A stretch of 35,869 nt of DNA from a virus: positions 1 to 35,869 of the IMG/VR virus record IMGVR_UViG_3300027370_000005. One strand, written 5' to 3'. Positions 6,162 to 35,869 of this stretch are shown in pieces. The notes below the pieces were generated by a model that had not been told where the DNA came from, searched no databases, and was given only the letters and a program-made list of their open reading frames with translations. Positions within the stretch are counted from its first letter, which is position 1, and every line of letters begins with the position of its first letter. The position numbers and the translations under genes are program-made.

Positions 6162-6506
6162 ATGAGCCCATTCGGATCACCGAAAAACACGCCACCGCCT
6201 ATCCAGACGGTGCTGACTGCTGCTATTCCACCGGATATTCCCGGCCAGCAGTCTTCTTCGATGAGTATTATCCCGCTCGCGAGCATTGCGGGAATCTCGG
6301 CAATCATGCTGAATCAACTGGCGCAGACCGGCTCGCAAACGGAATATTTCATGCAGATTGACAATGAGCTTATGGCGATAACAGGTCTTGATGGCAGTGC
6401 AAGCGGAGTGCGAGTGATTCGCGGCGTGAATGGTACTCAGGCAGTCCCGCACGCCATCGGCGCAACGGTTTTGTACGGGCTGGGAACGCAATTTCAGCAG
6501 AATTGA
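6162..6506 (+). CDS. Small fibre/decoration-like domain protein, 114 aa
   Basis: The protein has a Pro-rich start, then a hydrophobic segment (SIIPLASIAGISAIMLNQL) and a beta domain containing FMQIDNELMAITG and RVIRGVNGT, with HAIGATVLYG near the end. The same domain recurs in the exported protein at 9402-10247, so the two are probably paralogues. The pattern (aspartate, then EM, then RG-x-N-x-T, then HA-x-G) is common in phage structural proteins. It lacks an evident signal peptide, unlike its relative. The ATG lies four bases after the portal stop. Confidence 0.7.
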   Translation: MSPFGSPKNTPPPIQTVLTAAIPPDIPGQQSSSMSIIPLASIAGISAIMLNQLAQTGSQTEYFMQIDNELMAITGLDGSASGVRVIRGVNGTQAVPHAIGATVLYGLGTQFQQN

Positions 6507-6515
6507 AAGGAAAAT

Positions 6516-6719
6516 ATGGGAAACCAACTAAAGAACGCAAAGATGCCTCGGTCAGAAAAAGGGGGCGCATCGCGCGGAGCCAAAGGTCAGAACGTTGGCG
6601 CTGTCTCTGGCAAGCCGAACGATGAGTCGAGCATGGAGATTCACAAGAAGCATTTCGGGCACGTTTTGAAGACTGCTCAAGCGCTTCATGGCGGCGATCC
6701 TTATAAGCACGAAAAGTAG
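6516..6719 (+). CDS. Small hydrophilic protein, 67 aa
   Basis: A good Shine-Dalgarno (GAAAGGA) stands just before the ATG at 6516. The product is basic and Gly-rich at the start (KNAKMPRSEKGGASRGAKGQ), and ends with a possible helix (SSMEIHKKHFGHVLKTAQAL) and a short polar tail. No family is recognised. It lies between the portal and scaffold genes and may be a minor head component. Confidence 0.6.
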   Translation: MGNQLKNAKMPRSEKGGASRGAKGQNVGAVSGKPNDESSMEIHKKHFGHVLKTAQALHGGDPYKHEK

Positions 6720-28628: not shown

Positions 28629-28657
28629 GGCCCGTGGCCCCAAGCGCGGGCCTTTTT
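28629..28657 (+). terminator. Rho-independent terminator of the late operon
   Basis: GGCCCGTG (28629-28636) pairs with CGCGGGCC (28645-28652) with one G-U pair, followed by TTTTT (28653-28657). It lies 32 bases after the last late gene. On the other strand the stem is not followed by a T-run, so it should act on (+) transcripts only. Confidence 0.85.
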
Positions 28658-28664
28658 ATGTAGT

Positions 28665-28754
28665 TTAGTACCATCGCTCGCCGGTCCAAACATAAATCAG
28701 TCCGTCTTCGCCTATGGCCATATCCCCAATCACCGGCTGTTTTAGTTCAGCCAT
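28665..28754 (-). CDS. Micro-protein, 29 aa
   Basis: This short frame overlaps the 3' end of the zinc/AT-hook gene by 13 bases and ends just before the late terminator. It encodes MAELKQPVIGDMAIGEDGL, then IYVWTGERWY. The regular beta-like pattern and aromatic end look like a real small protein rather than chance. There is no Shine-Dalgarno, so it may depend on translation of the upstream gene. Confidence 0.5.
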   Translation of the reverse strand: MAELKQPVIGDMAIGEDGLIYVWTGERWY

Positions 28755-28990
28755 ACGCGGGATGGGGATTTGCATGCCGCTGCTTCTTTCTGCGCCCACT
28801 TCGGCGGCCTGCCTCGCTTACCCTTCTTCCATGGCCTGTTGCCTAATCTCTTGCGTATTCCACGCCGTGCAACCAGCTCGCAAGCATCGCACCTGGTCGT
28901 GTAAAGATTGCGCGGAGCGCCGCAATTGGCGCATTTACCTTCACTTACGCGCTTCTGTGACCACTCATACTGGCGGGAGTGCTCAGCCAT
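28742..28990 (-). CDS. Zinc-knuckle protein with AT-hook motif, 82 aa
   Basis: The product has Cys20-x2-Cys23 and Cys34-x2-Cys37, a likely zinc site, then a basic helix (ELVARRGIRKRLGNRPWKKG) and KRGRPPK (residues 58-64), which matches the canonical AT-hook core that binds the minor groove of A/T-rich DNA. The gene is read against all neighbours, from a promoter at 28997-29024 that would place its transcription start at or next to the ATG. This position opposite the early promoter is where phage switch regulators are often found. It may repress or activate one or both promoters; this is untested. Confidence 0.7.
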   Translation of the reverse strand: MAEHSRQYEWSQKRVSEGKCANCGAPRNLYTTRCDACELVARRGIRKRLGNRPWKKGKRGRPPKWAQKEAAACKSPSRVWLN

Positions 28991-28996
28991 AATCTC

Positions 28997-29024
28997 ATCT
29001 TACACCTGAAAGCAGGAATGTCAA
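28997..29024 (-). promoter_or_regulatory. Sigma70-like promoter for the (-) strand genes
   Basis: Read on the (-) strand, TTGACA (complement of 29019-29024) is followed by 16 bases and TAAGAT (complement of 28997-29002). The expected start of transcription is within a few bases of the ATG at 28990, so the transcript could be leaderless or nearly so. Confidence 0.6.
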
Positions 29025-29057
29025 GAAGAAAATAGTTGAAAATAACACTTGACATTC
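29016..29057. promoter_or_regulatory. Perfect 10-bp inverted repeat spanning the divergent -35 boxes
   Basis: GAATGTCAAG (29016-29025) and CTTGACATTC (29048-29057) are exact inverse complements. Their centres are 32 bases apart, close to three helical turns, and the spacer is A/T-rich. The arms contain both -35 boxes. Two promoters sharing an extended -35 context could explain part of the symmetry, but ten exact pairs suggest an operator for a regulator. Confidence 0.55.
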
Positions 29058-29077
29058 TTTTGGCGTTTTCGTACTAT
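29049..29077 (+). promoter_or_regulatory. Strong sigma70-like early promoter
   Basis: TTGACA (29049-29054), a 17-base spacer and TACTAT (29072-29077) form a near-consensus sigma70-type promoter. Transcription would start around 29084, about 14 bases before the ATG at 29098, with the GAGGGA ribosome site (29085-29090) at the 5' end. It probably drives the early region rightwards. Confidence 0.75.
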
Positions 29078-29097
29078 TTGCATAGAGGGACACGCAA

Positions 29098-29283
29098 ATG
29101 ACCTATAGCGAACTAAAACAGAGCGTAACAGGATGGCAGGCAAACCACGTAGCTGGCGACCTTTGCGCCATGTATGGCCGGAACGAAGTGGCATCGCAGT
29201 TCGACATCGACGCCGTGAAGCGAGCGCAGAAGGCTGATGACTTGGACGTACCCCTGTGGAAGCTCGCGGAGGTGCAATCGTGA
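29098..29283 (+). CDS. First early gene, hypothetical, 61 aa
   Basis: This is the first gene after the early promoter, with GAGGGA upstream. The product (MTYSELKQSVTGWQANHVAG, then VASQFDIDAVKRAQKADDLD) is helical and hydrophilic with one Cys. It resembles no family I know. Its TGA overlaps a GTG start. Short first-early proteins often act on host functions. Confidence 0.6.
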   Translation: MTYSELKQSVTGWQANHVAGDLCAMYGRNEVASQFDIDAVKRAQKADDLDVPLWKLAEVQS

Positions 29284-30069: not shown

Positions 30070-30547
30070 TAAAATGGCAGTGCAGGGTCAAGTGATTGAC
30101 GGTGAGATTGCCGAACCAAAAGCGATGACTGAAAGTCAAAAGCTGATTAAAGGCTTGCGAGACTTGGCGTCTTTTCTCGAAGCGCACCCAGAACTGCCGA
30201 TGACTTCCTCGACTTTGCGTGTGGATTACTTTCCAAGGCTCGAAGAAATGGCTCAGTACGTCAAAATCCTCGGCAAAATGAAGAAAGATGGCCTTGGCGA
30301 TTCGTGGTTCGTTCTCCGCAAGGACTTCTATCGCAGTGAATATGCCAGCGTGTCGATCGAAGCAAACTGGGCCCGAGAGCGTGTCTGCCAGAAGATCAAG
30401 ACGGGGACCAAGAAGATTATGCAACAAATTCAGACCAAGCCTGCCGAAACCACGCAGATCGAAGTTGAGGTCGAGACATTTGAGTGGAAATGCCCAAAAG
30501 TGGCTGCCCCACCCCCAGAACTGGTTGAAGAAAGCGAGCAGCCATGA
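30062..30547 (+). CDS. Hypothetical early protein, 161 aa
   Basis: A strong ribosome site (AAGGAGAAAAG) precedes the ATG. The N-terminal part (LIKGLRDLASFLEAHPELPM) has a pattern I recall in other phage early proteins of unknown role. The centre holds ARERVCQKIKTGTKKIMQQI, a basic helix, and the C-terminus is a beta/Pro-rich tail (VEVETFEWKCPKVAAPPPE). It directly precedes the Erf-like gene (ATGA overlap), so a recombination or DNA-binding accessory role is possible. Confidence 0.55.
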   Translation: MTNKMAVQGQVIDGEIAEPKAMTESQKLIKGLRDLASFLEAHPELPMTSSTLRVDYFPRLEEMAQYVKILGKMKKDGLGDSWFVLRKDFYRSEYASVSIEANWARERVCQKIKTGTKKIMQQIQTKPAETTQIEVEVETFEWKCPKVAAPPPELVEESEQP

Positions 30548-31338
30548 GTGAAGAGCAAGTCAAGCCTCCTGAGCCGGCACGGCCCAAATCGCTGGTGCAG
30601 AAATTGGCCGATATTGTGGCCGAAATCGACAACGTGGACAAGCGTGGGCGCAACGAATTCCAGAAATATGCCTACGTGAAAGCTGCTGATGTGGCTTGGC
30701 TTGTTCGCAAGGCTCTGTCTGAACGAAACGTCTACCTGGTGGCCGATGTCATCGAGGTCCGCAACTACGAAATCCCCGCCAAGGAAGGCCACATGCAGGC
30801 TGTTGATGTGAAAATGGAGTTCAGTTTCTTTGATGGCGACTCTCCGTCAACTGCGCCTATCGTGCTCCACAGCTACGGTACTGGAACGGACAAGGGCGAC
30901 AAAGCTGTCTACAAGGCCATGACTGGCGCTCTCAAATACGGCCTGAGGCATGCTTTCCTCATCCCTGATGAGTCTGACCCGGAAGCCGATTCTTCGACGG
31001 ATAAGGCCGTAGAGGCCGCTAAAGCCGTGGGCGAGGCCAAAGTCGCAGACCTGAAGAAAAAGGCCGGAAAATCGCCAGCGGTGGCCCAAGGAATCCTATT
31101 CTGGACGGCTCCCGACAAGTTTAATGGGCACCGAGCCACCTTTCTAAATTTGAAGGAGTTCGGCGCAGGGCTGAATGAAGTCGCGGCCGAAGGTCTGCGC
31201 CAGGTGCTCAAGAAGTACGTGAAGGGCAATGGGGACGGCATCTATGTGCCTACCAGTGGCAAAAACAATATGGACATGCTGCTGGTTGACCTCGAAGGCT
31301 GCGGCGTGCCCACCAAGAAATTGCAGGCGAAAGACTGA
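30544..31338 (+). CDS. erf: Erf-family single-strand annealing protein
   Basis: The 264-residue product shows the Erf family plan: EFQKYAYVKAADVAWLVRKA at residues 38-57, then a beta region, and YGTGTDKGDKAVYKAMTGAL at 111-130 followed by KYGLRHAFLIPDESD. In P22, Erf binds single-stranded DNA and pairs ends for genome circularisation. The C-terminal part (GHRATFLNLKEFGAGLNEVA, then LKKYVKGNGDGIYVP) is less conserved. It fits a terminally redundant, P22-like genome. Confidence 0.85.
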   Translation: MSEEQVKPPEPARPKSLVQKLADIVAEIDNVDKRGRNEFQKYAYVKAADVAWLVRKALSERNVYLVADVIEVRNYEIPAKEGHMQAVDVKMEFSFFDGDSPSTAPIVLHSYGTGTDKGDKAVYKAMTGALKYGLRHAFLIPDESDPEADSSTDKAVEAAKAVGEAKVADLKKKAGKSPAVAQGILFWTAPDKFNGHRATFLNLKEFGAGLNEVAAEGLRQVLKKYVKGNGDGIYVPTSGKNNMDMLLVDLEGCGVPTKKLQAKD

Positions 31339-34069: not shown

Positions 34070-34264
34070 TTGCCTGAACACCACATCACCATTTGGTTCT
34101 CCGACTCCTACGCAGCGCGAAAGTGGACGGCGCGGTGTACGTGCGGCTGGGCAGCAAGCTGCCAGACCGAGGCCGAGGCAAAGAAATCTGCGGAAATCCA
34201 CAGGGACATGCGGAATTTCCTTGACAAGAAAACGCTGACAGTGCTTAAATCCGCTTATGATTAA
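34070..34264 (+). CDS. Small CxC-containing protein, 64 aa
   Basis: The TTG at 34070 starts a frame with HHITIWFSDSYAARKWTARC, then TCGWAASC and a helix with AEAKKSAEIHRDMRNFL. The C-x-C-G-W ... C ... H pattern resembles small single-domain zinc proteins common in actinophages and other phages. Overlaps with the genes on both sides support it. The function is unknown. Confidence 0.6.
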   Translation: MPEHHITIWFSDSYAARKWTARCTCGWAASCQTEAEAKKSAEIHRDMRNFLDKKTLTVLKSAYD

Positions 34265-34469
34265 GATACAGGCCGTACTCAAAATGGTCAGCCGGGAGAT
34301 AGACGAAGCAGGTTCTTTGCGGAAACTCGCTGAGGCGTGGGGAATTAGTGCCGCGTATCTCAGTGACGTGATGCTCGAGCGCAGACTCCCCGGCCCGGCG
34401 ATTCTCGGCAAGATGGGCCTTCGTGTCAGGAAGACTGTCAGCCGCGTTTACGAGAAGGAGCGGCCATGA
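34257..34469 (+). CDS. Helix-turn-helix protein, Cro/CI-like, 70 aa
   Basis: Residues 18-45 (GSLRKLAEAWGISAAYLSDV, then MLERRLPG) match a helix-turn-helix of the Cro/CI type: A-E-A-x-G-I-S-x-x-x-L-S. The protein is the size of Cro. It ends with KMGLRVRKTVSRVYEKERP. It could regulate transcription at the divergent promoters (28997-29077) or elsewhere; no site is proven. Confidence 0.72.
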   Translation: MIKIQAVLKMVSREIDEAGSLRKLAEAWGISAAYLSDVMLERRLPGPAILGKMGLRVRKTVSRVYEKERP

Positions 34470-35622: not shown

Positions 35623-35869
35623 ATGCCAACATGGATTAAAGATAAGAACGGCAACAAGTGCTCAGTAGAATATTGGGGCACGAAAGAAAAAGCGCAAGCG
35701 GCGCTTGACAGTCTCAAAGACTGCTCCGGCTGCTCCGACTGCTCCCGCTGCTCCGGCTGCTCCGACTGCTCCGGCTGCTCCGACTGCTCCGACTGCTCCC
35801 GCTGCTCCGGCTGCTTCGGCTGCTCCCGCTGCTCCGGCTGCTTCGGCTGCTCCCGCTGCTCCCGCTGCT
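35623..35869 (+). CDS. Cys-Ser-x tripeptide-repeat protein (3' partial)
   Basis: AAGGAGA lies about eight bases before the ATG at 35623. A 33-residue start (MPTWIKDKNGNKCSVEYWGT, then KEKAQAALDSLKD) leads into an uninterrupted run of C-S-G, C-S-D, C-S-R and C-F-G triplets from codon 34, cut off by the window end after 16 full units. Cys every third residue could fit a repeating turn, a polyproline-like helix, or metal binding. I recall similar repeats in uncharacterised phage proteins but cannot name a family. Confidence 0.7.
   Translation, partial: MPTWIKDKNGNKCSVEYWGTKEKAQAALDSLKDCSGCSDCSRCSGCSDCSGCSDCSDCSRCSGCFGCSRCSGCFGCSRCSRC
35722..35869 (+). repeat. 9-bp tandem repeat encoding C-S-x
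   Basis: From 35722 the unit TGCTCC followed by GGC, GAC or CGC is repeated about 16 times; two units carry TTC in place of TCC. The array is still running at the window end. Such arrays can expand or shrink by slippage. Confidence 0.85.

Follow-up and report, generated by a model that had tools for sequence, protein, structure and literature searches.

Our findings give about an even chance to a model where this phage locus is a swappable early-control cassette whose regulator is, in the present case, a zinc/AT-hook protein predicted to bind DNA. The locus carries two divergent promoter matches that are conserved in a relative, a conserved left gene, a -10 element at a set distance from the start codon of that gene, and a left slot that is filled by HTH genes in other phages. 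Our confidence is only moderate, because a single true homologue of the 82-aa left protein was found.

The window (the whole stretch of DNA analysed, 35,869 nucleotides) is a virus record of 35.9 kb that encodes a P22-like portal protein (phrog_156), and the phage that carries the cassette is best explained as a podovirus with a portal of this type. The window is a fragment, given that its right end falls inside a 9-bp tandem repeat and that a terminase gene is cut at its left end. The repeat (CTGCTCCGG, 16.6 copies, 35721-35869) encodes a Cys-Ser-rich repeat, runs off the right end and is probably the reason for the contig break there. Between the terminator-like hairpin and the early module lies one leftward gene (table 1). 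Seven related contigs were reached through homologues of the ERF protein (61-85% identity over the aligned proteins); among them, the left gene is present only in L002/L012. A scan of genome contigs for a host with the ERF profile gave one distant match, at 34% identity.

Table 1. Features of the divergent locus and its surroundings, in window coordinates
Feature	Position	Strand	Details
Structural and lysis module	up to 28597	+	Rightward
Terminator-like hairpin with U tract	28629..28657	+	From scan; separates the structural module from the left gene, which converges on it
36-aa ORF	28665..28775	-	Overlap with the left gene's end; matches the C-terminal part of an L002 gene of 57 aa (86% identity, 35 aa)
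Left gene, 82 aa	28742..28990	-	ORF; N-terminal helix, C4 zinc site, basic helix, KRGRPPK, WAQKEAAA tail
Left promoter, TTGACA-16-TAAGAT	28997..29024	-	Promoter scan; 6 nt between the -10 and the ATG at 28990
Left arm of inverted repeat, GAATGTCAAG	29016..29025	-	Lost in L002
A/T-rich spacer, AAGAAAATAGTTGAAAATAACA	29026..29047	.	Largely conserved; may be a UP element or a target of the AT-hook
Right arm of inverted repeat, CTTGACATTC	29048..29057	+	Repeat search
54-bp block identical in L002/L012	29048..29101	+	Right -35, spacer, -10, leader with AGAGGG, ATGA
Right (early) promoter, TTGACA-17-TACTAT	29049..29077	+	Promoter scan
First early-operon gene, 61 aa	29098..29283	+	ORF list; no family known; L002 has an unrelated first gene
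Early module	29098 to right end	+	ERF, cytosine methylase-like, small HTH, DUF559-like and HNH genes
ERF single-strand annealing protein	30544..31338	+	PF04404, 1.6e-12; phrog_155, 4.5e-25; in the early operon
Small HTH protein	34257..34469	+	Homologous to the left-slot HTH of L013/L018; weak phrog_1468/3642 matches

Divergent promoters and the predicted leaderless left mRNA

Two sigma70-like promoters facing away from each other had been proposed in an earlier note on this DNA, and a scan recovered both, back to back, with the right gene beginning at the implied ATG at 29098. Since the same scan returned 8 such promoters over 16 kb, against 7.3 +/- 3.0 in shuffles, each match alone means little; support for the two comes from their position and conservation, not from the match itself. 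In L002 the left promoter reads TTGACT and TAAGCT, with the 16-nt spacing retained. On the right side, the 54-bp block exceeds every other identical run found on comparing the window with the L002/L012 locus; to its left 45 of 62 columns are identical, and behind it the genes of the window and of L002 are unrelated (the ERF DNA of the two is 83% identical). An exact search for the promoter block in viral contigs matched only the contig of L002. Within the spacer region, AAAATAGTT-N11-TTGACA recurs in L002 and at another promoter of L017. By alignment, what is conserved is the right promoter with its spacer, the AT-hook segment and, in part, the A/T-rich spacer; the inverted repeat that contains the -35 boxes is not.

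The left -10, TAAGAT, stands six bases before the ATG, and the same 6-nt spacing is found at the left genes of L002, L013 and L018. All four show a -35, 16-17 nt and a -10 exactly 6 nt before the ATG, an arrangement present at 12 of the 1009 ATG-started ORFs of the set overall; these four genes count as about two independent cases, because homology at this place links the window with L002, and L013 with L018. According to the rule for leaderless messages, a -10 (TANNNT) whose first T stands about 12 bp ahead of the start codon places +1 at the ATG, and leaderless initiation in lambda is a precedent (PMC3160421). From the TAAGAT-6-ATG spacing, the left mRNA is thus predicted to be leaderless, with +1 at the start codon at 28990, as is cI mRNA when made from PRM.

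Lambda PRM and PR are back-to-back promoters that serve a leftward small regulator (cI) and a rightward early operon. The window resembles this system in that divergent promoters flank a common control region and that the left mRNA is predicted to be leaderless; it differs in that the left gene encodes a C4 zinc/AT-hook-like protein and not an HTH repressor, and in that repeated conserved operators over both promoters are replaced by one 10-bp repeat, whose left arm is lost in L002. The locus had been described as unlike the lambda cI/cro type, which is right for the protein but not for the geometry: the promoters are back to back, their predicted start sites are about 94 bp apart, and the left one is placed as for a leaderless message. 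A possible further difference is that the window and the seven relatives, records that may be fragments, yielded neither a tyrosine integrase (PF00589) nor a resolvase-type recombinase (PF00239). A lysogeny switch therefore has no positive support, although the absence of an integrase is no proof, since all of the records may be incomplete. The proposal of an early switch keeps its basis in the divergent promoters, in a candidate DNA-binding protein and in the HTH gene that occupies the slot in two relatives; in the lysogenic sense it has no support.

Elsewhere in the early module, the segment 33581-33705 (+ strand) combines a sigma70-type promoter, TTGACA-16-TACACT, with a structured and apparently non-coding RNA behind it; this conserved element has counterparts in L006 (9739-9862) and L002 (8236-8350) and no Rfam match. 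The window element forms a long hairpin (fold z-score -3.8), and 12 bp of complementarity join its loop, TAGACCGTATGC, to the 3' tail, GCATACGGTCTA. This pairing is retained over 11 bp in L006, with five pairs changed on both sides (hand count), and over 12 pairs, G-U included, in L002. A short linker would strain an intramolecular pseudoknot, so the element may be a switch or make an intermolecular contact.

The left gene and its product

The left gene was first read as encoding a zinc-knuckle protein with a KRGRPPK AT-hook. The 82-aa ORF and KRGRPPK are indeed present; the zinc motif, CxxC-x10-CxxC (C20, C23, C34, C37), is C4 ribbon-like and not a CCHC knuckle. Both CxxC pairs are invariant between the window and L002, as are KRGRPPK, an RGRP core with basic flanks, and KRGRPPKWAQKEAAA; the comparison across relatives that had been proposed thus finds the AT-hook-like segment unchanged in the single relative that has the gene. 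Profile matches fall under the gathering cut-offs, both for AT_hook (PF02178, 15.1 bits against 17.4) and for DZR (PF12773, 14.4 bits against 27.3). The L002 homologue is 67% identical over residues 1-73, with 70% identity in the DNA of the gene, and the divergence (dS 0.99, dN 0.27, dN/dS about 0.28) indicates purifying selection on the protein. An AlphaFold2 model built from only two sequences gives a core of helix, zinc loop and helix with pLDDT about 88, whereas the AT-hook segment, at about 51, is predicted to be disordered. Fold and PDB sequence searches with the protein returned no significant match, no HTH family matched it, and its closest PHROG (28444) has no known function. Scans of viral contigs (IMG/VR) with the single protein and with a two-sequence profile gave only L002, beyond which a tblastn search against phage records and a scan of genome contigs (GTDB) added no homologue.

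AT-hooks had been called rare in phage regulators. Of the set's 243 other long ORFs, a single one has a similar motif. A precedent exists: phage-encoded Lsr2-type silencers such as CgpS carry an AT-hook-like Q/RGR motif (PMC7074111). Like these, the 82-aa protein is phage-encoded and has an AT-hook-like motif suited to A/T-rich DNA (PMC7074111); unlike Lsr2, with which our searches returned no sequence or fold match, it has a zinc site, and it gives no sign of oligomerisation or genome-wide silencing. A literature search on phage AT-hook zinc repressors returned no relevant paper. The most likely role of the 82-aa protein is that of a small DNA-binding regulator, the binding being what we infer from these features.

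By its sequence identity, the 36-aa ORF at the end of the left gene is the C-terminal remnant of a 57-aa gene that L002 has farther along its leftward operon; this shows that two genes and a portion of a third have been lost from the window. The last 10 aa of the window protein, CKSPSRVWLN, are absent from the L002 protein, which ends at AAA; this tail exists because the leftward run was truncated and the remnant now overlaps the end of the 82-aa gene. Over the codons of the AT-hook tail, as far as the ATG of the next gene, a 35-bp run (28773-28807) is identical to L002; it is the joint second longest identical run between the two and may hide a DNA-level signal. A 12-bp inverted repeat, GAACTAAAACAG (28737-28748 and 29110-29121), was taken as chance, both copies coding for ELKQ, one in the 36-aa peptide and the other in the right gene.

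The left slot in related phages

In L013 and L018 the divergent left slot, beside the ERF early operon, holds a small HTH gene (near phrog_1468 / phrog_3642). The early promoters of these phages (L013 6788-6808, L018 4552-4572) share a 19-bp motif, CGCAnATGAGCGTAyTrTT, beside the divergent HTH genes; it contains a perfect palindrome, TACGC-N6-GCGTA, in L013 and is one mismatch off in L018, which makes it a candidate operator of the small HTH regulator. The window shares with these phages the divergent position and the 6-nt spacing between -10 and ATG; its promoter lacks their motif, and instead of an HTH protein with that motif it has the zinc/AT-hook protein with the 54-bp block. The homology between the HTH protein encoded at 34257 and the left-slot HTH proteins is a point in favour of the earlier suggestion that the 34257 protein may act at the repeat. 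The left gene of L017 encodes a protein of 159 aa and has a ribosome site of its own; in the early promoter of this phage, TTTCGTACTATTGCATAG resembles TTTCGTACTATTTGCATAG of the window. A long imperfect inverted repeat, CATACTtCTACTACTAC ... GTAGTAGTAGTATG, lies across the divergent junction of L017 (about 6413-6545) and is a possible operator. The mechanical ORF list gave no clear divergent left gene in L014, L015 or L016.

Operator, linker, ordinary gene or early-control cassette

That the -35 boxes lie in a perfect inverted repeat with centres about three helical turns apart was verified: the 10-bp arms match perfectly, 22 bp (82% A+T) separate them, and the centres are 32 bp apart. Such a repeat might be a true operator, where a dimer of the 82-aa protein or of the 34257 HTH protein would cover both -35 boxes and repress both promoters. 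A perfect 10-bp inverted repeat arose in only 21 of 3000 dinucleotide shuffles (0.7%) of the 107-bp gap, which speaks for this reading, but once both -35 boxes are TTGACA the four further matches are expected in 2.1% of trials. Conservation also turns against it, as the left arm is gone in L002, the only relative with the same gene; it reads TATTGACTTTT there, and the spacing of the hexamers is shifted by 1 bp. Moreover, the HTH relatives have their common motif in the spacer between -35 and -10. Counted over the whole genome, the decamer shows no enrichment (39 matches with up to two mismatches, against 31.4 expected). We consider a dedicated operator very improbable and rejected it as the main explanation; the repeat probably consists of the two -35 boxes plus flanking bases that match by chance. 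The 54-bp block, in turn, could be a recombination linker, one of the short conserved stretches at module borders through which phages exchange modules, and would then have been transferred recently rather than kept for regulation. Its identity stops just past the start codon, where two unrelated genes begin, genes have been lost beside the left gene of the window, and the structural module is oriented opposite to that of L002, all of which would fit an exchange. Yet the block coincides with the -35, spacer, -10 and ribosome site, and L017, with a different left gene and without such identity, retains TTTCGTACTATT(T)GCATAG at the same place; we therefore find the linker improbable.

In the main rival to the cassette there is no switch: the left gene would be an ordinary small gene of the phage, its product, for instance a basic zinc protein, would serve DNA packaging, recombination or host takeover, and its constitutive host-type promoter would lie back to back with the early promoter by coincidence. 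The sub-threshold AT-hook and zinc-ribbon matches, the lack of a significant fold match and a closest PHROG without known function would all suit such a gene. In L002, moreover, it heads a leftward run that goes on toward the terminase genes, so a late operon might begin with it instead. The sub-threshold AT-hook score, the missing fold match and the leftward run also weigh against the cassette, together with the predicted disorder of the AT-hook, the single relative that has the gene, and the three relatives without a clear divergent left gene. On the other hand, an HTH gene fills the slot in two relatives, which makes a regulator there plausible, and the promoter spacer and leader are identical in L002, beyond what constitutive promoters need. 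An ordinary gene thus seems to us somewhat unlikely.

Under the early-control cassette, we infer transcription, leaderless translation, DNA binding and repression to run as follows. Host RNA polymerase would fire the right promoter, with a start at about 29084, and so express the early operon with its small genes, the ERF annealing protein and nuclease-like genes. The weaker left promoter would yield the leaderless mRNA for the 82-aa protein, which may bind the A/T-rich spacer, the conserved right promoter or both, and would dampen or time both promoters. A bolder version, which we hold as rather doubtful, is that a C4 zinc/AT-hook protein replaced the HTH repressor in a lambda-like cassette, grips the minor groove of the spacer between the -35 boxes and is swapped as a unit with its cognate promoter; if true, it would be a non-HTH class of phage early regulator. 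Should the cassette model be right, the divergent slot of one phage group would be occupied by a variety of small regulators, each paired with a promoter spacer of its own, and one of them would not be an HTH protein. This would provide a natural series for testing the joint exchange of regulator and promoter, and HTH repressors, which dominate the field, would be joined by a zinc/AT-hook class.
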